64,000 nt of DNA from Polynucleobacter sp. JS-JIR-II-50 (GTDB lineage: Bacteria; Pseudomonadota; Gammaproteobacteria; Burkholderiales; Burkholderiaceae). The stretch covers positions 1,984,934-2,048,933 of the forward strand of contig NZ_CP061307.1 in the NCBI RefSeq assembly GCF_018687895.1, written 5' to 3'. The position numbers and the translations under genes are program-made. Below are positions 49,730-64,000 of the stretch, one piece after another. A model generated the notes under the pieces. That model saw only the letters and a program-made list of their open reading frames with translations. It was not told the DNA's origin and searched no databases. The stretch's first letter is position 1, and each line of letters begins with the position of its first letter.

Positions 49730-49806
49730 TATCGCCCTTTGTCTTATGTTGTATTAATTGTATTAACAATCATCATGGCGTGGGCTGTAATATGTAAGTG
49801 CTCCAT

Positions 49807-50310
49807 ATGAAACTCAATGCCTATATTCAAGCCATCTATCTAGCAGCATCTGCTGGGACCCAGATGCTATCTGTCAGCACTGCTAAAGCCATGGCTGGTA
49901 TTGGCCTTGAAGGCGACCGTTATGCGCTAGGCACGGGTGCCTATTCGGCCATTGAGCCAACTAAAGTGCGTCATATCAGCATCATTGCCGTATCTGGAAT
50001 CAATACAGCCAATGACTGGTTAACAGCTGGTGATGAGCCTACTTTTGACGGCCCTGAAACACGCCGCAATATTGTGCTTGCAGGCATTGCGGCTTCCGAA
50101 CTCAATGCCCTTGTAGGCAAACCATTTCAGATCGGCAGCATTCAACTACTCGGCACAGAACTATGCACCCCCTGCGAGAGACCGGCGCAATTACTGAGTA
50201 GGCTAAGCTTCATGGACGCATTCGAAGGGCGTGGCGGTATTCGAGCTGAGATTTTAAATTCCGGGGCCCTCACTGTGGGTGATAAGCTATTTATCGGGAA
50301 TGAGGGGTGA
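49807..50310 (+). CDS. MOSC domain-containing protein
   Basis: A 167-aa MOSC (molybdenum cofactor sulfurase C-terminal) domain. KAMAGIGLEGDRYALGTGAYS is the GLEGDR motif, ETRRNIVLAGI the RRNI motif, and LCTPCERP holds the conserved cysteine; GRGGIRAEILNSGALTVGD completes the domain. A GTG three codons upstream is an alternative start. It is followed one base later by a GNAT gene. Substrate unknown, though the cysteine fits sulfur or molybdenum cofactor chemistry. Confidence 0.88.
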   Translation: MKLNAYIQAIYLAASAGTQMLSVSTAKAMAGIGLEGDRYALGTGAYSAIEPTKVRHISIIAVSGINTANDWLTAGDEPTFDGPETRRNIVLAGIAASELNALVGKPFQIGSIQLLGTELCTPCERPAQLLSRLSFMDAFEGRGGIRAEILNSGALTVGDKLFIGNEG

Positions 50311-50311
50311 C

Positions 50312-50707
50312 ATGATTCAATACCGCGACAACGCCATTATTAGCGCAGAACAAGCCATAGACTTATACAAGCGCTCGACTCTTGGAGAGCGCCGCCCCAT
50401 TCATAACGTTCAAACATTTGAGGACATGCTCAAGAACGCCAATCTCACTATTACCGCTTGGAACGGCGAAGCTTTGGTGGGCATTTCTCGCTCTCTGACT
50501 GACTTCTCTTATGTAGCCTATCTTGCGGATTTAGCCGTTGATGAAAAATATCAACGCTCTGGCATCGGCAAGCAACTAATTGAGGAAACCAAGCTACGTC
50601 TTGGTCCTGAATGCATGATTGTGCTTTTAGCAGCACCCAAGGCGAATGAATATTACGAGCATATTGGCTTTGAACACAATCCGCGCGCCTGGACTCTCAA
50701 AAAGTAA
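50312..50707 (+). CDS. GNAT family N-acetyltransferase
   Basis: A 131-aa acetyltransferase from ATG 50312, with GAGG upstream. LADLAVDEKYQRSGIGKQLIEETK is the acetyl-CoA motif A (Q-x-x-G-x-G), and ANEYYEHIGFEHNPRAW the C-terminal motif B. The start lies one base past the MOSC stop, indicating translational coupling. Substrate unknown. Confidence 0.9.
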   Translation: MIQYRDNAIISAEQAIDLYKRSTLGERRPIHNVQTFEDMLKNANLTITAWNGEALVGISRSLTDFSYVAYLADLAVDEKYQRSGIGKQLIEETKLRLGPECMIVLLAAPKANEYYEHIGFEHNPRAWTLKK

Positions 50708-50728
50708 TTCCGTCTTTATCATTGCCAT

Positions 50729-51373
50729 ATGACTATTACTCGATTTTGCTTAGTTCGCCACGGAGAAACCGACTGGAATGCTGCGCACCGCCTTCAAGGC
50801 CACACTGACATTAGCCTCAATGCCAGAGGCTTAGCACAAGCAAGACAAATGGCGCGTGCCCTCAAAAATATTCAGCTGCAATTTGATGTTTTATATACTA
50901 GCGATCTTCAGCGTGCAGCCAAGACTGCACAAGCCATTGAAGAATTATTCGACACAACTGCGATCCCAAATGCCGCACTCAGAGAGCGCCATCTTGGCGC
51001 CCTGCAGGGGCTCACTACTGATGAAGCCCCAATGCGTGAACCAGATCTCTGGGAATCTCATCTCAGCAGAAATATTGAAGAAAACTTACGTAATGGAGAA
51101 AGCATTCAACAATTTGCAGATCGCATTAAAACTACGCTTATCGAGATCTGCAAACAACATCCAGGTAAAACTATTTTGCTGGTCAGTCATGGAGGCGCAT
51201 TAGATATGATGTACAGAATTGCGAGCAATCAAGCTCTGGATGCAGAAAAGGCCGTTACCGTACCCAATGCCTCTGTCAACTGGATCAGTCATGATGGGCT
51301 TGCATGGAAAGTGAATAGCTGGGCAGATACAAGCCATCTAGAGGATTTATCTCTAGATAATCTAGATCTCTAG
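50729..51373 (+). CDS. Histidine phosphatase family protein
   Basis: A 214-aa phosphoglycerate mutase-like phosphatase. The phosphohistidine motif is LVRHGETDWNAAHRLQGHTDISLN and the second catalytic His is in LLVSHGGALDMMYRIA; RERHLGALQGLT carries the acid residue. Cobalamin-type (CobC), GpmB-type or nucleotide phosphatases all share this pattern, so the substrate is open. Follows MOSC and GNAT in the same direction. Confidence 0.9.
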   Translation: MTITRFCLVRHGETDWNAAHRLQGHTDISLNARGLAQARQMARALKNIQLQFDVLYTSDLQRAAKTAQAIEELFDTTAIPNAALRERHLGALQGLTTDEAPMREPDLWESHLSRNIEENLRNGESIQQFADRIKTTLIEICKQHPGKTILLVSHGGALDMMYRIASNQALDAEKAVTVPNASVNWISHDGLAWKVNSWADTSHLEDLSLDNLDL

Positions 51374-51400
51374 TAGCCCACAAGGGCTTATGATGCATAC

Positions 51401-52171
51401 ATGAAATCGATTTTTCGCATAACGACTCTTTTAATTGCCGCTGCAATCTATATTCCCGCCTACGCGTTAGATGATATTCCGGATGCACTTCCGGATCGCA
51501 TTGTTGGCGATATCGGCGCGGCCGTTTACACCTCTAACTTACACATTGGCACCGAAGGCACTCAATCCTTAGCTCTGCCCTATGCCTTTTTTGACTATCA
51601 GCGTTTTTTCGCTCGCATTGATGAGGTAGGCATTAAGACCTTCAAGATGGGCTACGGCTATTTTGAAGTCATCGGAAAAATTAATTTAGATACCTACAAA
51701 GTAAAGTCGTCAATTAATGGCAACTCTATCAATCGAAGCGACCCAATACCCCTTGGCCTAGGAACTTTTCAGGAAACGCCCATTGGGGGATTTTTTGTTA
51801 ATGCCTATCATGACTTCGGGAAGTCAAAAGGGGCGCTCTATGAATTTTTATACTTCGCCGAAATTGAAACCTATAAAAAAGTAATCGTCTATCCGCAAAT
51901 TGGTGTGGAACGACAGTCAAGTCAATATGCTAATTACTACTATGGCATCAACCCTGGAGAGTCGACAGCTACTGGTTATGCGGCTTATAGCGCCCCCGCA
52001 ACAAACAATCTTTTAGCGGGACTCATGGTGGAAATTCCAGTGGTGGATAACTGGTACATCAACGTGTATGGCAAACGCAAATGGATGGGTGGTGGAATTA
52101 ATAACAGCCCAGTCATGAATCGCTCATTCCAAGACAATGTCTTTATGGCACTTGCGTATCGCTTTAAGTAA
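51401..52171 (+). CDS. MipA/OmpV family outer-membrane protein
   Basis: A 256-aa beta-barrel protein with a signal peptide ending near YIPAYALDD. GDIGAAVYTSNLHIGTEGTQSLALPYAFFDYQRFFAR near the N-terminus and alternating polar/aromatic strands ending in VFMALAYRFK with a C-terminal aromatic are typical of MipA/OmpV, which scaffold murein hydrolases or act as porin-like proteins. Specific role unknown. Confidence 0.85.
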   Translation: MKSIFRITTLLIAAAIYIPAYALDDIPDALPDRIVGDIGAAVYTSNLHIGTEGTQSLALPYAFFDYQRFFARIDEVGIKTFKMGYGYFEVIGKINLDTYKVKSSINGNSINRSDPIPLGLGTFQETPIGGFFVNAYHDFGKSKGALYEFLYFAEIETYKKVIVYPQIGVERQSSQYANYYYGINPGESTATGYAAYSAPATNNLLAGLMVEIPVVDNWYINVYGKRKWMGGGINNSPVMNRSFQDNVFMALAYRFK

Positions 52172-52205
52172 GCAGATAGAATCCGGCTTACTCTACATGG
52201 CGGCC

Positions 52206-52940
52206 TTAGAAAGACATGACTAAGATCGACAAGCCTGAAATTAACATCACCAGCTCCATCAGCAACAAAAATTTCTTTTCTGGTAACGCCAGAACAATTT
52301 TCTTAGAAAAGATCGAGCCTACCAAAACACAGCTTCCAATAAGAAGTCCCTGAATAACTGCAGTTACATTGAGGAAGCCGAGCTGATGAAATGTAATTCC
52401 CTTGGTAAACAGAATAGATAGGGTGCTTGCCGCCTCTGTGCCTAAGAAGGCGCCCTTGGTGAGGCCAAAGGCCAGAAAGAAAGGGGTGTTGATAGCGCCT
52501 GTAGTCGCAACAATGCCAGTCAAATAGCCAATAGCGGCCCCAACCAAGGCCATCTGCCAAAGTTTTAGATAAAAATTTTGGTTGCGCATCCAGCGACGAA
52601 TCGGAATTAATGCGATTAAAAATATTCCTAAAGTTATTTCAATTAAATGTTCATCCAGTTGCACGAGAGTATTCACACCCAATATCGTGAATGGTATTGC
52701 AGCTAGGCTATAGACAAAACAAACGCGCCATTGAATCACACTCCACCACAAAAAAATACGAGAGAGATTGGCTACGGTGGCAACCAAAGCTATGACGGGA
52801 ATGGCCTGAATAGGTCCATAAAAATAGACCAAAGCGGGCATCAATATGATGGTGGTACCAAAACCAATGACGCCACCTAAAACCCCAGCGCCCAGGCCCA
52901 ATGAGCCAAGCACTATAGCCTGCAGAATTAGGTCAGGCAT
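52206..52940 (-). CDS. Sulfite exporter TauE/SafE family protein
   Basis: A 244-aa membrane protein with about eight hydrophobic segments. LGAGVLGGVIGFGTTIILMPALVYFYGP at the N-terminus and TGIVATTGAINTPFFLAFGLTKGAFLGTEAA in the second half are the two inverted TauE/SafE repeats (G-x-G-x-G-x-G-x-x-x-x-P). The family exports sulfite, sulfonates or related anions; substrate undefined here. Confidence 0.9.
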   Translation of the reverse strand: MPDLILQAIVLGSLGLGAGVLGGVIGFGTTIILMPALVYFYGPIQAIPVIALVATVANLSRIFLWWSVIQWRVCFVYSLAAIPFTILGVNTLVQLDEHLIEITLGIFLIALIPIRRWMRNQNFYLKLWQMALVGAAIGYLTGIVATTGAINTPFFLAFGLTKGAFLGTEAASTLSILFTKGITFHQLGFLNVTAVIQGLLIGSCVLVGSIFSKKIVLALPEKKFLLLMELVMLISGLSILVMSF

Positions 52941-53060
52941 GTTTACTTATCTCAATTAAATTTTGAATGACAAGGTCAATGTAAAAAATTTCTTTCAAAA
53001 AAAAACAAAAGCCGCTCGAAGGTGGTTTAAGCTCCTTAAGCAGCCGAAGGAAGCAATAAA

Positions 53061-53261: not shown

Positions 53262-54365
53262 TTAAGCCCAAAATGCTTTCATCATTGCAACATCAGCAAT
53301 GCCCCTATCGTTCCCATACTTCAAATAGGGCGCAATCCATTTTGGATCAAGAAGATTCTCTACCTTAGATAAACCAGGCGGAAGACCAACAACAATGTGC
53401 TTGGTCTTTGTGCCGCCCCCCTCTAAATCTTTCACCTCTTGATTGATCGTATTGGGCAGAGAAGATAAACGCAATCCCTGCTTTTGCTCATTGATCGTTC
53501 CATCGCCTAAAGAAATCACAATGGCTCGTTTAACGCCGGCAATAACATCGCTATGCGTGCTACTTTGGCTCATGCCGCCATCCATACATAACCTATCCTT
53601 TATGAATGTAGGGCCAACCTGGCCTGGTGCTGAAGAGCTTGCGGCACAAGCAACGTTAATAGGAACATTATCGGCTTTTGACACAACAATACGCTGTCCC
53701 GTAAAGCAATCAATCGCCGTAGTAAACATTCCATCTGAAGGCCAAGCAGAAGCCGTTAGCAGCTTCTTCATTACCTTGTAGTGATTGGCTACACCATCAG
53801 GATTGAACGAAGCCATCGCAGCTTTGCCGATGCGCTGAATAGATGCGAGAGATCCATCACGCACCGTCAACTCGGCATGCTGCGCCCTTAATTGAGAAGC
53901 ATTAAATTTCAATGCGGGCATCATTTCTGCAAGCAGTTTTGGGAAATCCGCAAAAAGATCCATCTCACCCATAAGACGCCACAAGTGCCCAGATGTCAGC
54001 ATTGCGCCAAATATTGAACCTGCAGAAGTGCCGACCACAACATCTGCACCGCTTAAATCTACGCCAGCCTTCTTAAGCGCATTGCAGTACCCGGCATACC
54101 AAGCAATCAATGGAGTTCCGCCACCGCCCAACGCCAAACCTCGCTCCTTGCCTTGGGCGAACGGATTCTTAAATGGGGCTGGATGAACTAAACCATCATT
54201 CCAACTCGTTGTAGATTCAACATCTTTTTTAGCTGCCAAGGCCTCAACTTCTGCAATAGTGTTTGATGAAAAATTTTGTGCCTGGGCTAAAGCTTGTGTA
54301 CTGGTAACTGCCGCGATGCCAGCAGCAGAAGTTTTTAAGAAATTACGGCGTGATGATGCAATCAT
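53262..54365 (-). CDS. Patatin-like phospholipase with Tat-type signal
   Basis: A 367-aa serine hydrolase. SSRRNFLKTSAAGIAAVTST is a twin-arginine signal (RRNFLK) ending near TQALAQA. The patatin domain has the oxyanion loop LALGGGGTPL, the nucleophile elbow VVGTSAGS and the Asp of the dyad in DGGMSQSS. It is probably exported folded to the periplasm and acts on lipids; the exact substrate is unknown. Confidence 0.88.
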   Translation of the reverse strand: MIASSRRNFLKTSAAGIAAVTSTQALAQAQNFSSNTIAEVEALAAKKDVESTTSWNDGLVHPAPFKNPFAQGKERGLALGGGGTPLIAWYAGYCNALKKAGVDLSGADVVVGTSAGSIFGAMLTSGHLWRLMGEMDLFADFPKLLAEMMPALKFNASQLRAQHAELTVRDGSLASIQRIGKAAMASFNPDGVANHYKVMKKLLTASAWPSDGMFTTAIDCFTGQRIVVSKADNVPINVACAASSSAPGQVGPTFIKDRLCMDGGMSQSSTHSDVIAGVKRAIVISLGDGTINEQKQGLRLSSLPNTINQEVKDLEGGGTKTKHIVVGLPPGLSKVENLLDPKWIAPYLKYGNDRGIADVAMMKAFWA

Positions 54366-54420
54366 ATAGTTTCCATAAATAATGCTCGATTTATAGCGGG
54401 CCCTAACGGCAAAGGATCGT

Positions 54421-54819
54421 TTAAACAGCGAGCCTGTAGAGAGACCATCCCAAGTTCAAAGCAACTAATGCAATGAGCGTGAAAAAAGTAAATTTCATTC
54501 CGAGCACGCGCTTGCTGAAATCTGGCGGTGGAGTATTCATACCCTTTGCATGAATCAAACGTCCAATAATGAGTGAGACGCCTGGAATGGCCACCAACCA
54601 CCAAGGGGCGCCATTTAACTCAAGACAAGCAATTAGGATAATTCCAATGGGAACGTATTCGGCAAAGTTGCCTTGTGTACGAATGGCCCTCTCAAGATCT
54701 TCGTGACCACCACTTCCTAGACCAACCTTATTTTTCCTTCTTAAGCCAATGACAGCAAAAGAGAGTTTGATAAAAATAATGGTTAAGGCAGCGGCAATAA
54801 TTGAGGTGACTAATAGCAT
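54421..54819 (-). CDS. MAPEG family membrane protein
   Basis: A 132-aa protein with four hydrophobic helices. LERAIRTQGNFAEYVPIGIILIACLELNG is the MAPEG signature (eicosanoid/glutathione metabolism family), and RLIHAKGMNTP follows. Bacterial members may conjugate glutathione to lipophilic compounds, but the activity is unproven. It lies ten bases after the HAD gene. Confidence 0.9.
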   Translation of the reverse strand: MLLVTSIIAAALTIIFIKLSFAVIGLRRKNKVGLGSGGHEDLERAIRTQGNFAEYVPIGIILIACLELNGAPWWLVAIPGVSLIIGRLIHAKGMNTPPPDFSKRVLGMKFTFFTLIALVALNLGWSLYRLAV

Positions 54820-54829
54820 TCATATCTCC

Positions 54830-55513
54830 TTAGATAACTTCTAATACCTTGCTTAAAGAATTGCCTTCATAGTTTGGTTTTTCACCAATCTCTTCAAAAG
54901 GGTGACCAAGGCGATTGACCCAAAACACATCAAAGCCATACCACTTTGCAGCTAGAGCATCCCAAGCATTACTCGACACAAAGAGAATTTCTTCCTTCTT
55001 GACGGGAAATGCTTTTAGTAAAAGCTCATAGGCTTGTGGAGCCGTTTTAAATAGACGCACTTCCTCAATTGTTACAACCTTATCTAAGTAAGGCTTTACT
55101 CCGTTGCTCTCCACTACAGTAGCGAGCATCTCTCTACTGCCATTAGACAGTATGGCCGTAGATAAACCTTTTTCTTTAATAGCTTTGAGAACACTCACGC
55201 TATCTTCAAAACCAGTGAGCTTGGCATACTGATCCATCAATCGCTTCTCATATTCTGGCGAGAGATTTAAGTTCATGCGTTTACAGACATATCGCAATGA
55301 GCGAATGGTTAGCTCCCAAAACGGGAGATAGTGCTTACTGCCGCTAGGATTGGGATCGCTCATCGTCACTAAGCGGGTATATTCAATTTGACGATCGCGC
55401 CACATTAAAGCAAAGGCCTGTCCATGACCCGGAAACAATTCTTCTGCCAACTGCCCCATGGAATACACATCAAATAATGTGCCATAGGCATCAAAAGCGA
55501 TTAGCTTATACAT
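54830..55513 (-). CDS. HAD family haloacid dehalogenase, type II
   Basis: A 227-aa enzyme of the (S)-2-haloacid dehalogenase type. The nucleophile motif is IAFDAYGTLFDVYSM (Asp8), motif II is TAILSNGSREML, and FVSSNAWDALAAKWYGFDVFWVNR holds the Ser-Asn and Asp residues typical of type II dehalogenases rather than phosphatases. It likely releases halide from short 2-haloacids; substrate range unknown. Confidence 0.9.
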   Translation of the reverse strand: MYKLIAFDAYGTLFDVYSMGQLAEELFPGHGQAFALMWRDRQIEYTRLVTMSDPNPSGSKHYLPFWELTIRSLRYVCKRMNLNLSPEYEKRLMDQYAKLTGFEDSVSVLKAIKEKGLSTAILSNGSREMLATVVESNGVKPYLDKVVTIEEVRLFKTAPQAYELLLKAFPVKKEEILFVSSNAWDALAAKWYGFDVFWVNRLGHPFEEIGEKPNYEGNSLSKVLEVI

Positions 55514-55550
55514 GTGTTTCTTGCTTTCTAGTATGAATTTCTATTGTCAT

Positions 55551-56234
55551 TTAATCAGAAAATTTAGCCAACGCATGCCACCCAAAACTAAGAAGGGGGA
55601 GCATATCTTTAGCAAAACCAGTGACTTCTTTAATTAACTCTTTAGAGCAAATCGTTGATCTGGGCAACTGCTTTCTAATAATCCAGCCCTTGAGTTTGAT
55701 TGCTCGTTCAACCTCTGGCGGGACATCATTAAAGCCCCTCGGAATGCGGGCCAATGTGTTGGAATAATCCAGCTCATAGCCTTTTCTTTTTAGAGACTTC
55801 TCAAGCGAAATCCAAGCCTTAGGGCTATCTAAAATTCCCTGTCTGAGCTTTTTTAGATTGTGGGCTTCTGGCTGTAAATAACCTGCAGCACATCTACTAC
55901 CCAGGGGATCTAAACGAAAATACAAAACGCCGGGAGAGTGCTTGTCGCCAGTTCTCGTAAAGAGCCCGCTGGCATGCATGTTGTAAGGATGCTTTGCTTT
56001 TGAAAACCGAGCATCTCGATTAATTCTAAAGAGAGATTTTTTAGGATCACCCCACAAGGGCACATCTTTTTTAGCGAGACTCTCAGACAAGACATCTGTA
56101 AAGTGCTTCATGGGTTCGCGCACAAACTCTTCATATTCCGAGCGATGCTCAGAAAACCAAATTCTAGTTTGATTGTTGGTAAGCTCTTCTAGAAATTTGA
56201 AAGCTTTCGGACTAAATCCAATAAATTCACTCAT
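55551..56234 (-). CDS. DUF2461 / TIGR02453 family protein
   Basis: A 227-aa protein from ATG 56234 (MSEFIGFSPKAFKFLEEL); a TTG eight codons earlier, right after the DUF3106 stop, is possible. FSPKAFKFLEELTNNQTRIWFSEHRSEYEEFVREP is the family signature, with RINRDARFSKAKHPYNMHASGLF and YFRLDPLGSRCAAGYLQPEA further on. No biochemical function is established. Confidence 0.88.
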   Translation of the reverse strand: MSEFIGFSPKAFKFLEELTNNQTRIWFSEHRSEYEEFVREPMKHFTDVLSESLAKKDVPLWGDPKKSLFRINRDARFSKAKHPYNMHASGLFTRTGDKHSPGVLYFRLDPLGSRCAAGYLQPEAHNLKKLRQGILDSPKAWISLEKSLKRKGYELDYSNTLARIPRGFNDVPPEVERAIKLKGWIIRKQLPRSTICSKELIKEVTGFAKDMLPLLSFGWHALAKFSD

Positions 56235-56260
56235 TGCAGTAAGGGGCGAGGATGCCAAGC

Positions 56261-56692
56261 CTAACCCGGTTGTTTAAACCGCTGCTGCTTTTCCTCAGGA
56301 CTCATGTTGTCCCATTTAGCTCTTCGTGCTTTCATTTCTGCCTGCTCTTCGGGTGTTAGCCCATCAAAGAAAGCCTTTCTCTCGGCCTTCATTTTTTCTT
56401 TTTGTTCAGGAGTAATGGATTGCCATTGAGCCTTCATTTTTTCCTGAACCAGCTTGCGATCTTCGGGACTTAAGGCCTTCATTTGATTGCGCCTTTGATG
56501 CCAATACGCTTTGCGCTCCTCTGGTGTTGCCTTCAGCAATGCAGCATCTATTTGCTTCATCTGCTCAAAGCGCTGATCAAAGGTGAGATTGATGTTGGCC
56601 AAAGGATTTGGTGGCTCAGGTATGGCAGCACCAGCCAAGGAAATCACAGAAACACTAAATAGCGCTCCAACTACCCATTTTTTAGAAATCAT
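56261..56692 (-). CDS. DUF3106 domain protein, exported
   Basis: A 143-aa protein with an N-terminal signal (VVGALFSVSVISLAGAAIPEPP) and a charged helical body of repeated units in which SPEDRK, TPEQKEKMKAE, TPEEQAEMKARR and SPEEKQQRF recur at about 20-residue spacing, the DUF3106 pattern. It is likely periplasmic; the function is unknown. The closely similar spacing suggests internal duplication. Confidence 0.82.
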   Translation of the reverse strand: MISKKWVVGALFSVSVISLAGAAIPEPPNPLANINLTFDQRFEQMKQIDAALLKATPEERKAYWHQRRNQMKALSPEDRKLVQEKMKAQWQSITPEQKEKMKAERKAFFDGLTPEEQAEMKARRAKWDNMSPEEKQQRFKQPG

Positions 56693-56757
56693 CGCCTCAT
56701 CTCCCGCCGGTTATGAACCATTCTAATCCTGGTCAGGGCAGAGTCAACTGGCCCCAG

Positions 56758-57714
56758 CTAGTAAGTTAGGCCTGCAATATAAGCGTAAAGCGGAATGCCC
56801 AAAATGATATTGAAGGGGAAGGTAATTCCCAATGACATTCCCATATATAAGGCGGGGTTTACTTCTGGAAGCGCATGCCTTAACACTGCTGGCACAGCAA
56901 TATAAGAAGCGCTGGCAGCAAGCACCATCAATAGGACGGTATCGCCCAATGGCAAGCCCAATAGCTTGCAAAGTGCCAATGCAATAGAGGCATGAACCAA
57001 AGGAGCGCCGATTGCATAAAGCAAAGTAATGGGTGGCTTACCCTTTAATCCCTCAAAGTTCTTAGCCGCCATCAAACCCATGTCGAGCAAGAAGAAGGCC
57101 AGCATTCCCTTGAACAAATCGATTGAAAATGGGGCCATTATTTTTTGCCCACTATCGCCACTGACTAAGCCAACCAACATCGAGCCTAAAAGGAGTAGCT
57201 GCGCGCCATCAGTAAAGGATTCATGAAGAATCTTGGACATGCTTGTCGACTGTGTTGAATTCGTGGCTGATGTCCTCGCTTTATTCGCTAACAAGATTGC
57301 CAGAATGATTGCCGGTGACTCCATCAAAGCCATTGCAGCAGCCATGTGTCCGCCAAACGCAATGCCATATTGATCAAGCGCTTGTGTCGCAGTAATAAAC
57401 GTAACGGCGCTAACCGAACCATAAGTAGCTGCAATGGCGGCTGCATCATAGTTATTGAGCTTGGTTCTTAAAACCATATATCCCATGAGAGGAATGATGA
57501 TTGCCAAAAATACAGCGAGCCCAAGCGCCAAACCAATCTCAAGAGTAAATCCTGATTTATGAAGGGCAAAACCACCCTTTAAACCCAAAGCCATCAATAA
57601 GTAGAGCGATAAAAATCTAGCAATGGGCTGAGGAATTTCTAGATTGGATTTAACGGCACCAGCAAAAGCACCAAAGACGAAAAAGAGAATTGCTGGATCC
57701 AAGAAATTATTCAT
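56758..57714 (-). CDS. sbtA: Sodium-dependent bicarbonate transporter, SbtA family
   Basis: A 318-aa membrane protein with ten hydrophobic segments and the SbtA landmarks: NFLDPAILFFVFGAFAGAVKSNLEIP, LYLLMALGLKGGFAL, ATYGSVSAVTFITA and GHMAAAMALMESPAIILAILLA. Such permeases take up HCO3- with Na+. No SbtB (PII-like) partner is adjacent. In a heterotroph it could feed anaplerotic carboxylations, helped by the carbonic anhydrase at 40 kb; that link is inference. Confidence 0.9.
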   Translation of the reverse strand: MNNFLDPAILFFVFGAFAGAVKSNLEIPQPIARFLSLYLLMALGLKGGFALHKSGFTLEIGLALGLAVFLAIIIPLMGYMVLRTKLNNYDAAAIAATYGSVSAVTFITATQALDQYGIAFGGHMAAAMALMESPAIILAILLANKARTSATNSTQSTSMSKILHESFTDGAQLLLLGSMLVGLVSGDSGQKIMAPFSIDLFKGMLAFFLLDMGLMAAKNFEGLKGKPPITLLYAIGAPLVHASIALALCKLLGLPLGDTVLLMVLAASASYIAVPAVLRHALPEVNPALYMGMSLGITFPFNIILGIPLYAYIAGLTY

Positions 57715-57770
57715 ACCAACATCTTAGGTAATTTTAGAAGTTCTTGTATTAGCCACACAGCGCCTGAGGG

Positions 57771-58667
57771 CTATACAGGATCGATGTGCGTCATGACATT
57801 GAGCACCGGCAACTTTTTCTTGATTTGATTGCCCGCGTTTAAGGCAATGTCGTGCCCAACCTTGACAGTGGCATTGGCATCCACATCGATATGAACGTCT
57901 ACCAAAATCATGTCGCCCATCTTGCGAGTTCGTAGATCATGAAAGCCTCTAACGCCCTCAGTAGATTTAATAATGTCCTCTATCTGACGATGCTCTTCCT
58001 CTGATACTGCCCTATCCATTAAGTCATGCAGGGCATCCCAACCAAACTTCCAACCCATTTTTGCCACCATTAAGCCAACTACTAAAGCACCAATAGCGTC
58101 AAAGATTGGGTGCCCAAATAAAGCACCAACAATACCAATAGAAACCACTAATGAAGAAGCGGCATCCGATCTAGCGTGCCAAGCATTAGCTACCAACATC
58201 GAAGATCGCACACGCTGCGCTACTGCCAACATGTATCTAAAAAGTAGCTCCTTTGCAACCAAAGAGGCCAATGCAACATATAAAGCTAGGATTTGGATTT
58301 GTCCAGCCGGCATTGGATTGACAATCTTTTCTCCGGCCTTAAAAAGCATGCCCGCACCAACAGCCAATAATGAAATTCCCAAAAATAGAGAGGCGGCGGT
58401 TTCATATCGTTGATGACCATAGCGGTGATCTTCATCTGCATCTTTGGCGCTATGATGATTAGCAAAGAGTACGACGAAGTCAGCGACCAAATCTGTCGCA
58501 GAGTGAATGCCATCCGCAATCAAGCCCTGTGAGCCAGACACAATGCCCGCAAACACCTGAGAAACTGTCAGGCCGATATTCACAACAACACTAACTAATG
58601 TGCTTTTCTTCGCAGCCTGTTGTTTAGCGGGCGTTTGTGATTCGTGATCTTCTATTTCTTTGTCCAT
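57771..58667 (-). CDS. Cation diffusion facilitator (CDF) transporter
   Basis: A 298-aa metal exporter. Six hydrophobic segments hold the metal site GLIADGIHSATDLVADFVVL (H-x-x-x-D) in TM2 and ANAWHARSDAASSLVVSIG (H-x-x-x-D) in TM5. The cytoplasmic domain has GVRGFHDLRTRKMGDMILVDVHIDVDAN and the closing VMTHIDP. The HxxxD pairs suggest Zn or Fe rather than Mn. Confidence 0.92.
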   Translation of the reverse strand: MDKEIEDHESQTPAKQQAAKKSTLVSVVVNIGLTVSQVFAGIVSGSQGLIADGIHSATDLVADFVVLFANHHSAKDADEDHRYGHQRYETAASLFLGISLLAVGAGMLFKAGEKIVNPMPAGQIQILALYVALASLVAKELLFRYMLAVAQRVRSSMLVANAWHARSDAASSLVVSIGIVGALFGHPIFDAIGALVVGLMVAKMGWKFGWDALHDLMDRAVSEEEHRQIEDIIKSTEGVRGFHDLRTRKMGDMILVDVHIDVDANATVKVGHDIALNAGNQIKKKLPVLNVMTHIDPV

Positions 58668-58744
58668 TAACTGATACTAGCAAAGAAGGAGGGGTTTGAG
58701 CCTGTTTTAGCCCATGCATATACACAGGAGCAATCAAACCAGAC

Positions 58745-59506
58745 TCAGGATGACCGATCCTTCATGGCCGCCCTAATGTCTTGATATATCTGTAAACCGG
58801 CAATTAAGATAAGCGAAAGGGATAAGGGCAATACTGAAATATAACCAACCCTTTTAAAGCTCACTGCACCAATAATTCCGCCCACTAAAAACATTCCAAA
58901 AATAAATAGGTGGGTTTTGAGTTTCTCTCTGTTGGCCTTGACATAGCCACTTACATTAGCTTCTGGTGACTTATTCCAATAGATCAACTTACCCAACTCA
59001 ATACCTATATCAGTAATTACGCCCGTCATATGCGTGGTTCTTATTTCTGCTCTAGAGGCTTTTGTAACTATGGCATTTTGTAGGCCCATCACAAAACATA
59101 AAAGAAGGGCAATCGCCGGGACAGTTAAAGGCAAATAGATATTCAAGTTGGCTCCCACCAAACCAAACACCAGTAGCAGAATGGCCTCGACCAATAAGGG
59201 CAAAGCGAACTCACTATGAATTTTTCTTCTATGGCCCCAATTAACAAGAATGGCTGTGGTTGCTGCTCCAAATAGAAATGAGAACAAAAGTGAAATGCCG
59301 CCCAATACAGAAATAAAATTATTGAGGGCTAGGTCATCGCCAATCGCGGAAATGATGCCGCTCATATGAGAGGTATAACGAGCAATCGCCAGAAATCCAC
59401 CGGCATTCACCGCGCCCGCCACAAATGCCATATAGGCACCTAACTGAACATTGGTCTTATGAGAGCGTTGAGCGCTAGTTAAAAGCTGAATGAACTTTAT
59501 TGGCAT
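58745..59506 (-). CDS. YoaK family (DUF1275) membrane protein
   Basis: A 253-aa protein with six or seven hydrophobic segments. AGAVNAGGFLAIARYTSHMSGIISAIGDDLALN is the family signature near residue 35, with CFVMGLQNAIVTKASRAEIRTTHMTGVITDIGIELGKLI centrally (the TRAxxRTTHxTG motif). Function unknown, possibly transport-related. Confidence 0.9.
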   Translation of the reverse strand: MPIKFIQLLTSAQRSHKTNVQLGAYMAFVAGAVNAGGFLAIARYTSHMSGIISAIGDDLALNNFISVLGGISLLFSFLFGAATTAILVNWGHRRKIHSEFALPLLVEAILLLVFGLVGANLNIYLPLTVPAIALLLCFVMGLQNAIVTKASRAEIRTTHMTGVITDIGIELGKLIYWNKSPEANVSGYVKANREKLKTHLFIFGMFLVGGIIGAVSFKRVGYISVLPLSLSLILIAGLQIYQDIRAAMKDRSS

Positions 59507-59562
59507 TGAAGTTACATTCTAAGGCCCACGCCGATTCGCCAATCAATGGGGCGCCTCAAGTG

Positions 59563-59586
59563 AAAAAACCACCCGAAGGTGGTTTT
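59563..59586 (-). terminator. Rho-independent terminator after cydB
   Basis: Leftward, AAAACCACC and GGTGGTTTT pair around a four-base loop (TTCG on the transcript) and are followed by TTTTTT. It is about 80 bases after the cydB stop, the expected end of the cydAB message. Confidence 0.88.
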
Positions 59587-59594
59587 GATCAGCT

Positions 59595-59631
59595 TGGTGG
59601 CGCGGCGTGGAGCCTAACCACCGATATAAGG
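59595..59631 (-). repeat. R1: degraded tRNA-like 3' half
   Basis: Read leftward it gives TCGGTGGTTAGGCTCCACG then CCGCGCC A CCA. That is a tRNA T-arm (GTGG/CCAC stem, seven-base loop TTAGGCT in place of TTCGANT), a seven-base acceptor strand, a discriminator and CCA, in correct spacing. No 5' half is present. It lies just after cydB and just before a terminator. Confidence 0.6.
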
Positions 59632-59663
59632 CGCGAATTATTTAATACGTCAGTTCTGGGGCT

Positions 59664-60677
59664 TTAGTAATAACTCAGTGGCTCGGTTTTACCCCAAAAG
59701 ATTTTGTAGGAATAAATCGTATATCCAATGATGGTTGGCAGCACAACTATAGCCCCCCAAAATATGACCCACAATGACTCCGTAGCTGAGGCCGCCTCCC
59801 AAATTGTCATTTTGTCTACAACGATATAAGGGAACATGCTGTAAGCGATTCCTAGGAATGCCAGGACAAAGATGGCTACGCTTAGAGCAAAAGGAACCCA
59901 AACGGGAGCAGGCTTATTCTTCAGCATTTTTAACAAGTTCAAATCGATAAAGATAAAGCAAGCCAAAGTCAGAACCGGGAAAGGCAGCAAGAAAAATACA
60001 TTGGGGAGAGTAAACCATTTAGCCGCAATCTCTGAACTAAAAAATGGCGTCGCTACAGAAATGATCCCAACACCAAGCGCCGTTAATAAGAGGCATTTTC
60101 TTGCCCAGCCCACTGCCTTTAGTTGTAACTCGCCAGACGTCTTCATAATCAGCCAGCCAGCACCCAATAAGGCATACCCAGCAGGCAGGCAAAGCGCCAC
60201 GATAAAAGAAAATATCCAGCCCAAGTATCCGGAGTCAAAACCAATCACCTCTCTACCAACCATGACGCCTTGAGATGCAGCGGCCAAGAAACTACCAAAA
60301 AAGAATAGAAAGTTCCAGACTGCCTTCTGGCTCAAATGTGCTTTTGCACGAAAGTCAAAAGATACGCCTCGTAAAATTAAACCGGCTAACATGATGCCCA
60401 CAGGCAAATAGAGTTCCGTCAAAATAATTCCATGGGCCATTGGAAAGGCAATCAAGAGAACTCCGACTCCGAGTACTAACCAAGTTTCATTGGCATCCCA
60501 AAAAGGGCCGATTGATGAAATCATGATGTCTTTTTCTGACTCACTTGCCTGATTCAATAAGATGCCCACACCTAGGTCATATCCATCCAAGACAACGTAA
60601 GCAATCATTGCAATACCCATTGCTACCAAAAAGAAAAGGGGCAACCAACCAGATGGTTCATATAAGTTAGGAATCAT
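59664..60677 (-). CDS. cydB: Cytochrome bd-type ubiquinol oxidase subunit II (CIO type)
   Basis: A 337-aa membrane subunit beginning GWLPLFFLVAMGIAMIAYVVLDGYDLGVGIL, with the conserved WDANETWLVLGVGVLLIAFPMA and GVSFDFRAKAH (the R-x-K-x-H region). It is close to the length of CioB-type subunits of cyanide-insensitive oxidases (E. coli CydB 379). It ends EPLSYY. Its start is two bases after cydA. Its last 44 bases reappear exactly at 63957-64000. Confidence 0.95.
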   Translation of the reverse strand: MIPNLYEPSGWLPLFFLVAMGIAMIAYVVLDGYDLGVGILLNQASESEKDIMISSIGPFWDANETWLVLGVGVLLIAFPMAHGIILTELYLPVGIMLAGLILRGVSFDFRAKAHLSQKAVWNFLFFFGSFLAAASQGVMVGREVIGFDSGYLGWIFSFIVALCLPAGYALLGAGWLIMKTSGELQLKAVGWARKCLLLTALGVGIISVATPFFSSEIAAKWFTLPNVFFLLPFPVLTLACFIFIDLNLLKMLKNKPAPVWVPFALSVAIFVLAFLGIAYSMFPYIVVDKMTIWEAASATESLWVIFWGAIVVLPTIIGYTIYSYKIFWGKTEPLSYY

Positions 60678-60679
60678 TC

Positions 60680-62032
60680 TTATGCTCCTGCAATACCGTT
60701 AGTCAAGCCTGGTTTTTGCTCACCAATAATATGCACGGGGTGAGTTTGTCTTGCCAAATAAAAAACAACCCAGATGTAAGAAACAATCAGCCCTAAATAA
60801 AGTGCAAGATACATCACGAGTGTGCCCAAAACCATATTGGTAGGCACTTTAGTAACCGCATCAGCAGTCTTTAGCACCCCACTCACCAGGTAAGGCTGTC
60901 TGCCTATCTCTGTCACATACCAGCCGGCAACTACCCCGACCCAACCAGAAAATGTCATCACACTGAGCCCCTTTAAGAGCCAGGTTGGCAGTTCTGTATT
61001 TTTTCTTGTGAGATAAAACCCAACGAATGCCGTTAAGAGCATCAACATACCAACGCCAACCATGATGCGAAAGGCAAAGAAGATGGGGGCAACTGGTGGG
61101 GTTGCGCCAGGGAAAGCATCCAACCCCTTCACCTCACCCGCAAAGGAGTGTGTCAAATATAAAGATGCAAGCTTTGGAATGGCTATTTCGTATTTATTGG
61201 CTTTAATGGTTTCATCAGGTATAGCAAACAAAACGGCGGGGGCGCCTTTGGTTGTTTCCCAAATTCCCTCCATTGCCGCCACCTTTGCGGGTTGATACTC
61301 CAGCGTATTTAGGCCGTGTGAATCGCCAAGCACAATTTGTAGCGGGGCTAACACCGCCGCCATAGCCATTGCCAACTTGATCAGCGCTCGGTTGCCGGAA
61401 AGATTGATGCCCTTCAAATAACGATAAGAAGAAATACCCGCAATTAAGAACGTTACCGTCAAAAATGATGCCGTCATCATATGAAAGAGGCGATACGGCA
61501 TGGAGGGATTAAAGACAATCTCAATCCAATTGGTTGCATGCGCTTGACCATTGATCATCTCAAACCCTTGTGGGGTTTGCATCCAAGAATCTAAAGCAAT
61601 AATCCAAAATGCCGATAGCGATGTACCGAAGGCAACTAAAAATGTGGCGACAGTATGAGCTCTTTGGGAGACTCGTTTAGAGCCAAACAACATAATTCCT
61701 AAAAAAGTTGCCTCGAGGAAGAATGCAGACAAAACCTCATAGCCAAGCAAAGGCCCTGCGATATTGCCTACTGTTTGCATATATCCAGGCCAGTTGGTTC
61801 CAAACTGAAAGCTCATCGTAATGCCGCTAACAACACCAAGCGCAAAGGTTAATGCAAATATCTTGACCCAGAATTGATAAGCCTCACTCCATACTGAGTC
61901 ACCTGTTTTATTGAATTTAACCTTGAAATAAAAAAGTACCCATCCCAAAGCAATCGATATCGTTGGGAAAAGAATATGAAAAGTCATATTCGAAGCAAAT
62001 TGAATTCTGCTCAAAATAAGCGTATCAAGCAT
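60680..62032 (-). CDS. cydA: Cytochrome bd-type ubiquinol oxidase subunit I (CIO type)
   Basis: A 450-aa quinol oxidase subunit carrying the haem sites. Haem b595 His is in MTFHILFPTISI, haem b558 His in YRLFHMMTASFLT, and GWYVTEIGRQPYLV is the conserved GRQP motif (W of GRQPW replaced by Y). The length and short Q-loop region match the cyanide-insensitive oxidase (CioA) branch rather than E. coli CydA (522 aa). AAGAGGT precedes the ATG. With cydB it allows oxygen use that bypasses the cytochrome c oxidases. Confidence 0.95.
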   Translation of the reverse strand: MLDTLILSRIQFASNMTFHILFPTISIALGWVLFYFKVKFNKTGDSVWSEAYQFWVKIFALTFALGVVSGITMSFQFGTNWPGYMQTVGNIAGPLLGYEVLSAFFLEATFLGIMLFGSKRVSQRAHTVATFLVAFGTSLSAFWIIALDSWMQTPQGFEMINGQAHATNWIEIVFNPSMPYRLFHMMTASFLTVTFLIAGISSYRYLKGINLSGNRALIKLAMAMAAVLAPLQIVLGDSHGLNTLEYQPAKVAAMEGIWETTKGAPAVLFAIPDETIKANKYEIAIPKLASLYLTHSFAGEVKGLDAFPGATPPVAPIFFAFRIMVGVGMLMLLTAFVGFYLTRKNTELPTWLLKGLSVMTFSGWVGVVAGWYVTEIGRQPYLVSGVLKTADAVTKVPTNMVLGTLVMYLALYLGLIVSYIWVVFYLARQTHPVHIIGEQKPGLTNGIAGA

Positions 62033-62128
62033 TTTGTTACCTCTTATTTTTAATGTACTTTTATTATGCTCTTTACCCCCCTGGCCTGCTGAAGCCGATT
62101 TACTTGGCTTACCTCAGCATCGTATGTC
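62033..62128 (-). promoter_or_regulatory. Probable cydAB promoter/leader
   Basis: The 96 bases ahead of cydA, up to the edge of repeat R2, hold an AT-rich block read leftward as AAAGAGCATAATAAAAGTACATT, with CATAAT as a possible -10, then AAGAGGT at the ribosome site. No -35 or operator can be named with certainty. Confidence 0.4.
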
Positions 62129-62187
62129 GTTTTAGTGTTTCTTGGTGGCACGGGGCAGAATCGACGAGGGCCCAGGATGTCTAATCC
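62129..62187 (-). repeat. R2: degraded tRNA-like 3' half (59 bp, about 85% identical to R3)
   Basis: Leftward it reads GGATTAGACATCC (anticodon-arm-like; tRNA-Phe has GGATTGAAAATCC), then GTCGATTCTGCC (T-arm-like), CCGTGCC A CCA (acceptor end), then AAGAAACACTAAAAC. Fifty of 59 positions match R3 by hand alignment. It begins at the stop codon of the BLUF gene and lacks the terminator hairpin that follows R3; unrelated sequence starts at about 62128. Confidence 0.65.
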
Positions 62188-62612
62188 TAATCTTGATTGC
62201 CTTTGGCCACTGAACGCATGATTCTCAACAATTCAACATCATGGCTTGGAAGACCATCAAGCAGACCCACTAGATGTGGAACATCCCTAGCAATTTGATC
62301 GCCCCCATAAAACCTCAAGGCCCAATTGGGAAACAATCTTTGGTCAATCTCATCGAGCTCAATTCGATGAAGAACTTTATGGCGATAGTCTTTCTGAATT
62401 TTTTCCCAAATGAACAAAACATCTTTTCGCTTACCCTCAAGAATCTGGGCGAAATAGCCATTCTCGTAGAACAGAGCGCCCGTAAGCTCATGGTCTAAAT
62501 TCCACTTTCGGGCAACATCAAATAGATGGACTAAGCTTGAAAGCCCCATGTCATGAGTTGCTTTGCTGATATAGCTCAGCTCTACCAATTGATTTGGATC
62601 GTCAGCACTCAC
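62187..62612 (-). CDS. BLUF-domain blue-light photoreceptor (stand-alone)
   Basis: A 141-aa flavin-binding light sensor. The BLUF photocycle residues are in place: Tyr14 (LVELSYISKA), Asn38 (KWNLDHELTG), Gln56 (YFAQILEG) and Trp96 (FPNWALRFYGG). The C-terminal 35 residues form short helices with no output domain, so signalling would go through protein contacts. The stop codon coincides with the first base of repeat R2. It lies upstream of cydAB in the same direction, but the two are separated by R2 and a probable promoter. Confidence 0.93.
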   Translation of the reverse strand: MSADDPNQLVELSYISKATHDMGLSSLVHLFDVARKWNLDHELTGALFYENGYFAQILEGKRKDVLFIWEKIQKDYRHKVLHRIELDEIDQRLFPNWALRFYGGDQIARDVPHLVGLLDGLPSHDVELLRIMRSVAKGNQD

Positions 62613-62710
62613 TTATTCTCCCGGCATCTAAAAATAACTATGAAAACTAAAGTCAGTTTGTTCTTTTAGTCACCAAGCTTAAATGGGCAATAACCCTATC
62701 GACCGCAAAT

Positions 62711-62734
62711 AAAAAACCACCTGAAGGTGGTTTT
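62711..62734 (-). terminator. Rho-independent terminator after the tautomerase gene
   Basis: AAAACCACC and GGTGGTTTT pair around TTCA, followed leftward by TTTTTTATTT. Nearly identical to the terminator after cydB. Confidence 0.88.
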
Positions 62735-62788
62735 GGTGTTTCTTGGCGGCCCAGGGCAGAATCTACCAGGGTCGAAGATGTCTAATCC
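62730..62788 (-). repeat. R3: degraded tRNA-like 3' half
   Basis: Leftward GGATTAGACATCTTCG, GGTAGATTCTGCC, CTGGGCC G CCA and AAGAAACACC, then the terminator hairpin. The tautomerase gene's last codons and TAG stop lie inside the repeat (GAT TAG of GGATTAG), as the BLUF stop abuts R2. That both reading frames end at the same point of the repeat suggests cassette-like junctions. Confidence 0.65.
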
Positions 62789-63171
62789 TTGTCGGCATAT
62801 TGCATTTCACCATTGCCAAACGACCAATTTTCTTTGCTTACCTCAAGCAAGTTAATAAAAACATCTTGAGACCTGACTTTTAGCTTTTGCACTAAAGTCT
62901 CGCAAATGGCTTTATATAGTTTCTTTTTTATCTCGATAGACCTACCAAAACTTATGGTCGCTTGAATAAAAATAATGCTTTCTGAATATTCAATTCCTAA
63001 ATAGCTTTTTGGAATATTTAATTCTGAAACGTCGTGTCTAGTAATAATCTGAAATTTATCGTCTTCAGGAACGTTGATTTGCTCTCGCATCACGTTATAG
63101 ACAATGTCCCCGACTTGCTGAGCAAAGCTCTCAGAGTGTTTTTTACTTAAATCAATTCTGACTAATGGCAT
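62782..63171 (-). CDS. Tautomerase superfamily protein
   Basis: A 129-aa protein from ATG 63171, with AGGAGA seven bases upstream; the frame stays open seven codons more. It begins MPLVRIDLSKKHSESFAQQV, so after Met removal it exposes the catalytic Pro1 of the tautomerase/4-oxalocrotonate family. FIQATISFGRSIEIKKKLYKAICETLVQ and VFINLLEVSKENWSFGNGEMQYAD fit the longer cis-CaaD/MSAD-like members. Substrate unknown. The 3' end runs into repeat R3. Confidence 0.88.
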   Translation of the reverse strand: MPLVRIDLSKKHSESFAQQVGDIVYNVMREQINVPEDDKFQIITRHDVSELNIPKSYLGIEYSESIIFIQATISFGRSIEIKKKLYKAICETLVQKLKVRSQDVFINLLEVSKENWSFGNGEMQYADKD

Positions 63172-63240
63172 CGCTATTCTCCTTAGATCCATCTATCTTA
63201 AACAGATTCAATTCATTGCGCGGAAGCTTGAGTAGGGGCC

Positions 63241-63301
63241 AAAAAATCAGCCGAAGGTGGTTTAGTGATTCTTGTTGGCCCGGGGCCTAAGATGAACGAC
63301 C
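63241..63301 (-). repeat. R4: strongly degraded tRNA-like end plus terminator remnant
   Basis: Leftward: GGTCGTTCATCTTAGGCC, CCGGGCC A ACA, AAGAATCACTAAACCACC, TTCGGCTGATTTTTT. It follows the order of R2/R3 (T-arm-like, acceptor-like, AAGAAxCAC, terminator) with more changes; the CCA reads ACA and the terminator stem has mismatches. Confidence 0.5.
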
Positions 63302-63350
63302 GTAGACTTTTGCCGCTTAAGGCAATAAAAGTCACCGGGGAGAAAAATCG

Positions 63351-63373
63351 CTTATAGTTATTAAAACTATAAG
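63351..63373. promoter_or_regulatory. 23-base palindrome upstream of the lipoprotein gene
   Basis: CTTATAGTT and AACTATAAG are perfect inverted arms around ATTAA, eight bases before the lipoprotein ATG. It overlaps a plausible -10 (TATAGT) and the ribosome-site region (AAGGGG), so it could be an operator or an mRNA hairpin controlling translation. Confidence 0.45.
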
Positions 63374-63380
63374 GGGTACC

Positions 63381-63770
63381 ATGAAGAAATTTCTTGCGCT
63401 AACGCTGTTTTGCTTACTGGTTGCTTGCTCACAAAAGCCTGACAACTTAACATTAAGTTGTTATGGTGCGGCCATTAAGACCGAAGCAAAGCAAGAGGTT
63501 GTTACGCCTCAGGTTACGCGAACTTATAAGTTCCAAAATTACAAGATTGATGATTATGATTGTGCTCAACAAGCTAACATTATCAGTTGTAACTTTATAA
63601 AAGAAGAAAACGGTACCAGACAGCGTAAACGCATCATTTACGATATAAGCACGCAGTCATTCGCAGAAATTGATGCTATTTGGGCTATTGGTGAAAAGAT
63701 AAATACTAATGAACGCAATATAGCCAGAACAGAGTTTCTTGGTAGGTGCCAAAAGCCCCTCATAAACTAA
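63381..63770 (+). CDS. Lipoprotein, hypothetical
   Basis: A 129-aa protein. MKKFLALTLFCLLVACSQKPDN is a lipoprotein signal with lipobox LVAC. The mature part contains four more Cys (LSCYG, DYDCAQ, ISCNF, GRCQK) and alternating polar/aromatic stretches such as RTYKFQNYKIDDYDC, suggesting a small disulfide-bonded beta domain. AAGGGG precedes the ATG. It is the only rightward gene in the 48.9-64 kb stretch besides the MOSC-to-MipA group. I do not recognise the family. Confidence 0.82.
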   Translation: MKKFLALTLFCLLVACSQKPDNLTLSCYGAAIKTEAKQEVVTPQVTRTYKFQNYKIDDYDCAQQANIISCNFIKEENGTRQRKRIIYDISTQSFAEIDAIWAIGEKINTNERNIARTEFLGRCQKPLIN

Positions 63771-63853
63771 ACGGTCATTTTTTAAACGACATCTCGCGTC
63801 CAGGGGAATGCTGGAAGACTTGAGACCAATAGTGGCTAACCCACCAGATCAAA

Positions 63854-64000
63854 TGAAAAAACCACCCGAAGGTGGTTTTGATCAGCTTGGTGGCGCGGCG
63901 TGGAGCCTAACCACCGATATAAGGCGCGAATTATTTAATACGTCAGTTCTGGGGCTTTAGTAATAACTCAGTGGCTCGGTTTTACCCCAAAAGATTTTGT
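63854..64000. repeat. 147-bp exact direct repeat, copy B
   Basis: Identical to 59561-59707 to the last base of the window, including terminator (63856-63879), tRNA-like end (about 63888-63924) and the cydB 3' end. Only the sequence to its left (GATCAAA against CTCAAG) differs from copy A. The true right boundary is unseen. Confidence 0.97.
63957..64000 (-). CDS. cydB: Partial second copy of cydB (3' end only)
   Basis: The last 44 bases of the window read leftward encode the same C-terminal residues as cydB (KIFWGKTEPLSYY, stop TAA), with no base change. Whether a full second cydB and cydA follow, or only a fragment, cannot be known from this window. An assembly artefact at a repeat is an alternative. 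Confidence 0.6.
   Translation of the reverse strand, partial: KIFWGKTEPLSYY

Follow-up and report, generated by a model that had tools for sequence, protein, structure and literature searches.

Displaced tRNA-Phe 3′ ends in Polynucleobacter as probable junctions of a gene-cassette array anchored at the tRNA gene

The right end of the 64,000-nucleotide stretch of Polynucleobacter sp. JS-JIR-II-50 analysed here (contig NZ_CP061307.1, positions 1,984,934 to 2,048,933; hereafter the window) carries five sequences resembling the 3′ end of a tRNA, which are interspersed with genes for cytochrome bd oxidase, a blue-light sensor and a tautomerase (Table 1). A preliminary description, made from the sequence alone, had listed five leftward tRNA-like 3′ ends at 59595–63924, and all of them are present there on the minus strand. 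When compared by blastn with the genome's own tRNA-Phe, its trailer and its terminator (search covering 72 loci), they gave E-values of 1e-13 (R1), 1e-7 (R2), 4e-14 (R3), 2e-8 (R4) and 8e-16 (R1 copy), and for all five the likeness greatly exceeds chance. The parent gene, tRNA-Phe(gaa), lies intact at window-equivalent positions 64234–64309, 234 bases beyond the window end, so that a matching tRNA gene does exist; of the 36 tRNA loci of this genome 30 were scanned, and they include no other tRNA-Phe. Because only 3′ pieces are present, no tRNA was reported in the window by ARAGORN or in the 58–64 kb region by an Rfam covariance search, the best match of which was a sub-threshold Phe_leader. 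We propose that the five sites are junctions of a gene-cassette array that is anchored at tRNA-Phe and grows at the tRNA end, a reading to which we assign a probability of about 0.8. The recombination would be driven either by an integrase acting in trans or by homologous recombination.

Table 1. Positions of the tRNA-like sites and cassette genes in the window
Feature	Position	Strand	Description
Terminator-only match to site model	53003–53030	-	E 0.005, weak; behind the patatin gene
Eight older cassette genes	53262–59506	-	patatin, MAPEG-like, HAD, DUF2461-like, DUF3106, Sbt_1, cation efflux, DUF1275
R1	59560–59627	-	degenerate 3′ part of tRNA-Phe (T-arm, acceptor, CCA) with trailer and terminator, directly behind cydB
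cydB-cydA cassette	59664–62032	-	encodes subunits II and I of cytochrome bd oxidase; 4 other genomes have homologs inside their tRNA-Phe arrays
R2	62126–62188	-	hybrid site (AGGATTAGACATCC... up to CCA, plus trailer), terminator lost, touching the BLUF gene stop
BLUF blue-light sensor cassette gene	62187–62612	-	3 other genomes have array homologs, one just 37% identical
R3	62707–62789	-	complete hybrid site whose terminator is intact; overlaps the tautomerase gene in the region of its stop
Tautomerase_2 cassette gene	62782–63192	-	homologs in arrays of 7 other genomes
R4	63241–63286	-	degraded: acceptor, ACA replacing CCA, trailer, terminator
Small lipoprotein-like cassette gene	63381–63770	+	no Pfam match; against the array direction
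R1 copy	63852–63919 (feature 63849–64000 with the start of a second cydB 3′ end)	-	stops at the 95-N gap

Polynucleobacter records were the nearest named matches of the neighbouring response-regulator gene, at up to 93% identity. The tRNA-Phe gene with its trailer was searched in 150 genomes of the same genus and in the window genome. Among the matches listed, many of these 151 genomes had separate 3′ pieces besides the tRNA itself. Seventy-two genomes were sampled, mostly as 20-kb stretches at tRNA-Phe; they were hand-picked and for the most part single-contig with good tRNA matches, and 71 of the 72 loci could be oriented (L244 could not). A site profile was built from 160 aligned copies, and a site was called when it matched with E<1e-4 more than 100 bases downstream on the strand of the tRNA. 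This profile search located 300 downstream sites, the window's five included, distributed over 62 of the 71 genomes with at most 12 per locus. The arrays have a single polarity: over the 71 loci taken together, a single site was detected on the opposite strand and a single one upstream of the tRNA. R1, R3 and the R1 copy are among the 160 training rows, and their E-values under the model are partly circular. Since the profile had been trained on these loci, the test was repeated with each locus's own tRNA, resulting in 253 downstream copies in 57 of the 72 loci and none reversed. In the outgroup Burkholderiales (58 loci, L098–L155), 27 loci were testable, having a tRNA-Phe with more than 200 bases behind it, and a copy was found in one. 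Nine of 22 loci from named Polynucleobacter-like genomes or metagenome-assembled genomes (L076–L097) were testable, and five had copies; P. aenigmaticus MWH-K35W1 has five copies and P. bastaniensis two.

Some other tRNA genes of the window genome were also considered. A copy of the 3′ end and trailer of tRNA-Lys(ttt) (G000:C1:1530283, L040), 81% identical, lies about 0.97 kb downstream of that gene, and 28 other non-Phe tRNAs have no such copy within the approximately 1.4 kb examined. The end of tRNA-Ser(gga) with trailer and terminator (G000:C1:1269086–1269129, L006) matches about 44 bases of R3 at 86%.

The sites fall into two classes. The common class (180 of the 300 sites by our filter) has the consensus AGGATTAGGCATCCTCGGCCCTGG(T)TCGATTCCGCCCCGGGCCACCA-AGAAACACC-AAAACCACCTTCGGGTGGTTTTTT. 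Its right part is tRNA-Phe from the T-loop through CCA, while the left part, the cassette left half-site with consensus AGGATTAGGCATCCTCGGCCCTGG, is anticodon-arm-like yet has its own conserved sequence, which is not that of the tRNA. Sites of the second class consist of genuine tRNA-Phe sequence from the anticodon loop onward and bound larger islands; tyrosine recombinases (PF00589) were found inside such islands of G013, G026, G079 and G131. A search pattern suggested in the preliminary description fared poorly, returning two chance-like matches elsewhere in the genome when two mismatches were allowed and missing R2 and R3, because its spacer is 8 and theirs is 4.

The cassettes delimited by these sites are short, with a median length of 1036 bases over all 300. 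Among the 258 cassettes of up to 3 kb, 161 contain one open reading frame (ORF) of at least 80 amino acids, 84 contain more and 13 none. Altogether 303 cassette ORFs of this size run with the array, and in the 207 cassettes whose last ORF is forward the stop codon lies a median of 2 bases ahead of the site. Representatives of 40 recurrent cassette families were scanned against Pfam, and nine of the 40 had no match. Among those with a match are transporters and porins (Sbt_1, OprB, MIP, TctC), proteins for redox reactions and stress (Redoxin, molybdopterin oxidoreductase), a uracil-DNA glycosylase and a lipid A acyltransferase. Components of toxin-antitoxin systems are present as well: BrnT, in 13 genomes, a Gp49/HTH pair and a Phd antitoxin. 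The BrnT/BrnA pair, found in the arrays of these 13 genomes and also at L260 5829–6343, is among the most widespread cassettes. Its spread recalls the toxin-antitoxin cassettes of large integrons; toxin-antitoxin genes and many genes of unknown function are reported for Alteromonas integrons in extracts of one study (PMC4119200).

The two ends of a site have different histories. In cassette families present in multiple genomes, left halves are more alike if the preceding gene is the same (0.691 versus 0.594 in permuted data; 51 families, z 8.5, 0/300), and the trailer with the terminator is more alike if the following gene is the same (0.785 versus 0.704; 40 families, z 4.4, 0/300). The middle of the site tracks neither neighbouring gene. 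A T/TT indel in the T-loop, scorable in 169 of the 300 sites, tracks the preceding gene (0/500 permutations) and has no clear link to the following one (38/500). These associations of half-site, terminator and indel indicate that the mobile unit runs from terminator through gene to left half, and that the crossover falls mostly between the T-loop and CCA. The suggestion that a repeat spreads together with its terminator was therefore wrong in detail, as the terminator goes with the next gene and the left half with the preceding one.

The repeats could instead be copies, made in place, of a module that acts as a functional RNA or a terminator, such as a tRNA-like mRNA end, and does not serve mobility. 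The strong conservation of T-loop, acceptor and CCA, the placement at stop codons and the attached terminator are in keeping with such a module. We nevertheless consider it very improbable, given the separate histories of the left and right halves and the movement of whole units between species described below. Furthermore, the two acceptor/T-type helices show no covariation beyond that of shuffled alignments (the observed value was reached in 102/300 and 225/300 shuffles), and the covariation of the anticodon-like helix is slight (9/300). A folded-hairpin site resembling attC was likewise not clearly supported by this test.

A decay gradient runs away from the tRNA. In the 40 loci with four or more sites, site score declines the farther a site lies from the tRNA (mean rho -0.29, negative in 32 loci, 0/1000 permutations). 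Near-identical cassettes, defined as those with a copy of at least 93% identity elsewhere, sit closer to the tRNA (mean relative rank 0.40 versus 0.53, p 0.014). The stronger degradation of distal sites points to growth at the tRNA end, and decay and rank together argue for polar insertion there.

Cassettes are transferred between species as whole units. Homology over the whole cassette links 164 pairs between genomes, of which the best are 97–100% identical; the relatives compared represent species-level divergence. A core flank could be measured for 22 of the pairs: in 18 the identity of the cassette exceeded that of the core by more than 3 points, in 4 the two were within 3 points, and no pair showed the reverse. 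Neighbouring cassettes shared a family in 4 of 223 comparisons. In one case, three species have a common first cassette, 99.8–100% identical, behind an identical tRNA, whereas the DNA upstream of the tRNA has diverged (the core flank is 75% identical in the one pair measured); the terminator type behind the cassette's site differs between one species and the other two. In an ectopic array, G106 has a cassette encoding a CuZn superoxide dismutase (PF00080) that recurs at 96% identity in the tRNA-Phe array of G031, and the likeness runs from the site trailer to the CCAAG of the next site and ends there.

Array pieces away from tRNA-Phe occur in G106, G076 and G078 (L259 6164–7187, L260 5250–6493, L261 5825–5870 and L262 6230–7218). 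Those in L259 and L260 start with genuine tRNA-Phe sequence at the anticodon loop, as if they had been excised and then re-inserted. An ectopic difference of a single cassette between G106 and G031, with flanks about 85% alike, fits insertion or loss and was not relied on.

The shortness of the transferred units bears on classic tandem accretion, according to which each fragment would be the scar of an independent island whose own integrase was later deleted. This holds for the larger islands, which are bounded by second-class sites, in some cases carry tyrosine recombinases and in places adjoin tRNA-Phe. The small cassettes, however, are already short at 97–100% interspecies identity and so move in that form, not as whittled-down islands, and unrelated ones have one conserved non-tRNA left half-site in common. 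For them the accretion scenario is largely refuted, and as an account of the array it is improbable. The stack of old attachment scars envisaged in the preliminary description was thus correct in kind, since serial sites, the orientation of displaced 3′ ends, a matching tRNA and a gene content that varies strongly among relatives, with no fixed set of sites, are all found. What changes is the nature of the sites: they do not stem from a handful of large islands with integrases but mark the joins of a genus-wide array, whose cassettes mostly hold one gene and have moved between species.

We envisage the following working of the array. A cassette unit would comprise a trailer with terminator, usually one gene, and the left half of a hybrid site. 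Newcomers would enter between the tRNA and the older array, presumably as circular intermediates, by recombining in the common tRNA-like middle (T-loop, acceptor, CCA). The tRNA would retain a working 3′ end, and the displaced old 3′ end would form the new site behind the newcomer's gene.

The enzyme may be a tyrosine recombinase acting in trans, supplied most plausibly by integrase-bearing islands that use the same tRNA. A candidate island integrase of 424 amino acids belongs to Phage_integrase (PF00589) by Pfam, with 31.2 bits against a cut-off of 27.1, and has relatives less than 350 bases from tRNA-Phe in at least nine genomes. Among the matches listed, they lie within this distance on the 5′ side in G018, G027, G034, G059 (a broken copy) and G089, and on the 3′ side in G020, G048, G079 and G131. 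At E<=1e-20 the island integrase was detected in at least 79 of the 151 genomes. The relatives on the 5′ side point away from tRNA-Phe, and among the matches listed a further one lies at a distance of about 1.2 kb in G090. We considered whether every array has the island integrase as its resident partner and rejected this, since at E<=1e-20 none was detected in the window genome and several other array-bearing genomes.

A number of observations weigh against the proposed array. Nine of the 71 loci have no site, and 86 of the 389 cassette ORFs oppose the array direction. The terminator is also weakly tied to the preceding gene (z 1.8, 16/300), and the excess of recent cassettes at the first position is weak (13/45 versus 39/229, p 0.054). 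The site was not detected in phage, plasmid or viral collections at the sensitivity of these searches (exact patterns only for the viral set), and no mobile form was seen. No tyrosine recombinase was found within the window's array, the nearest in the window being a XerC-like gene at 27147–28148, 25 kb off; among the matches listed, the island integrase was not found at E<=1e-20 in the window genome or in the array-bearing G004, G024 and G036. Whole-genome PF00589 scans missed weak members, because the island integrase itself scores just 31 bits, and other recombinases may be overlooked. Finally, the crossover is not constant, one pair of 99.8% identity differing from column 16 on, and such variation fits homologous recombination better.

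Ordinary homologous recombination of the RecA type could move the same array, using as homologies the 76-bp tRNA gene and near-identical sites of 30–60 bp. Besides the crossover point that differs between pairs, this explanation is favoured by array-bearing genomes that have no island integrase and by the junction of the R1 copy, which, if real, lies in the terminator and not in the T-arm. The lack of mutS and mutL in PnecC should moreover relax recombination between short or diverged repeats, also in the window genome if it belongs to that group; both genes are missing in all 20 PnecC genomes of one study, of which extracts were available (PMC5644125). On the other hand, the cassette of the three species, which has no common flanks beyond the tRNA and the site, would need both crossovers to fall within about 90 and about 30 bases, and a single polarity with growth at the tRNA end is not explained by homologous recombination itself. 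Two ectopic arrays also start at the tRNA anticodon loop, which is a usual target of integrases. On balance we regard homologous recombination as the mover as possible, if rather doubtful.

In the window genome, the cassette array extends over about 11 kb (approximately 53–64.2 kb), is mostly old and thus continues left of R1, where the preliminary description had it begin. It contains cydBA, the BLUF sensor, the tautomerase and transport genes. All 13 genes at 53262–63770 have homologs in array cassettes of 1–10 other genomes, 12 of them in at least two; this includes each of the eight older genes, whose homologs lie inside tRNA-Phe arrays of 1–10 other genomes. Among control genes, array homologs were found for none of the 6 genes at 48857–52940 and for 1 of the 37 ORFs of at least 150 amino acids in window 1–45000. 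Homologs of the lipoprotein-like gene occur in arrays of three other genomes, likewise opposing the array direction. The names patatin, HAD, DUF3106 and Sbt_1 come from Pfam scans of homologs, and three further older genes we take to be MAPEG, DUF2461 and cation efflux genes. The site model detected no site between the eight older genes. Since the only match left of R1 is terminator-like, older sites in that part, if ever present, have eroded; the match itself may be the distal end of the old array.

The fifth site, the R1 copy, is present, but its standing is doubtful. A run of 95 Ns starts at the base right after the window end. The left contig terminates at this gap in the R1 copy, where the tRNA-proximal flank is joined to R1. 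The right contig opens with a 130-base copy of window 63751–63880 that includes the terminator and then reaches tRNA-Phe, whereas the left contig continues instead into a copy of the cydB end. The contig ends (window 63849–64000 and L070 7935–8160) therefore overlap by 130 bases and disagree past the shared terminator. Either the R1 copy marks where the ends of a 4.3-kb unit of the cyd region meet, in a tandem or a circle, or it results from misassembly through 27 identical bases that include the terminator. We gave it no weight as a separate site, yet it is counted among the 300.

In the literature searched, no title or abstract opening described this array, and no paper paired 'Polynucleobacter' with 'tRNA-Phe'; PMC5244307, which by its title deals with Polynucleobacter islands, could cover part of it. 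The closest published systems are additive flexible genomic islands at tRNAs, which extracts of the respective papers describe for Alteromonas (PMC4119200) and Candidatus Actinomarinales (PMC7771536), as well as for Candidatus Methylopumilus, whose fGI-2 at tRNA-Lys is an additive island (PMC10872708). As presented in these extracts, such islands have in common with our array a tRNA target, cassettes present or absent between strains, and a direct repeat of the 3′ part of the tRNA. Here too we find a tRNA target with 3′ direct repeats and presence or absence of cassettes at a fixed locus, in this case between species-level relatives. By comparison with the same extracts, the Polynucleobacter array differs in its mostly single-gene units, its runs of as many as 12 sites detected in 20 kb and its non-tRNA left half-site, and the behaviour of half-site, terminator and polarity measured here was not met in the accounts as excerpted. 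Islands anchored at tRNAs and growing by addition are therefore already known, and the Polynucleobacter array is a variant of them.

Tandem accretion of integrative elements at a tRNA attachment site is a known concept as well. It resembles the array in its serially displaced 3′ ends and in the integrases carried by the larger members at tRNA-Phe; it differs in that most units here are small cassettes moving in that form. Tycheposons of Prochlorococcus are tRNA-bounded elements with cargo. They measure 4–200 kb and have a tyrosine recombinase, according to extracts of a published account (PMC10872708). Like the array, they are tRNA-bounded, cargo-bearing and found in streamlined aquatic bacteria; unlike them, the units described here measure about 1 kb at the median, and a recombinase was found not in the window array but only in larger islands of some relatives.

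Integrons hold single-gene cassettes that mostly run in one direction. Their recombination site lies just behind the stop codon, they grow in a polar manner from an anchor, and they include toxin-antitoxin cassettes; clusters of attC sites without an integrase are known as CALIN. The array is integron-like in its one-gene cassettes, its site at the 3′ end of the gene and its insertion at one anchor, for which decay and rank suggest polarity. It is unlike an integron in its tRNA-Phe anchor and its tRNA-derived site with a terminator; the candidate hairpins show no clear covariation. In 30 genomes no integron integrase IntI (TIGR02249) scored above the cut-off (best 80.7 bits versus 265). The array is hence not an integron, although it is integron-like in its working. 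A more specific form of the proposed array, quite possible though far from secure, amounts to a tRNA integron that would serve the whole genus for gene capture: the apparently single-copy tRNA-Phe would take the part of attI and the hybrid sites that of attC, with upstream terminators borne by the cassettes, a recombinase provided in trans by larger islands or the host, and a cassette pool shared between species. Sites, boundaries and interspecies transfers can be read from sequence, so that the enzyme that moves the cassettes becomes a directly testable question. Such capture would help to explain the flexibility of small genomes. Integrons are the best-known bacterial means of capturing single-gene cassettes, and the array would represent a second, tRNA-anchored way of doing so in a common freshwater genus.

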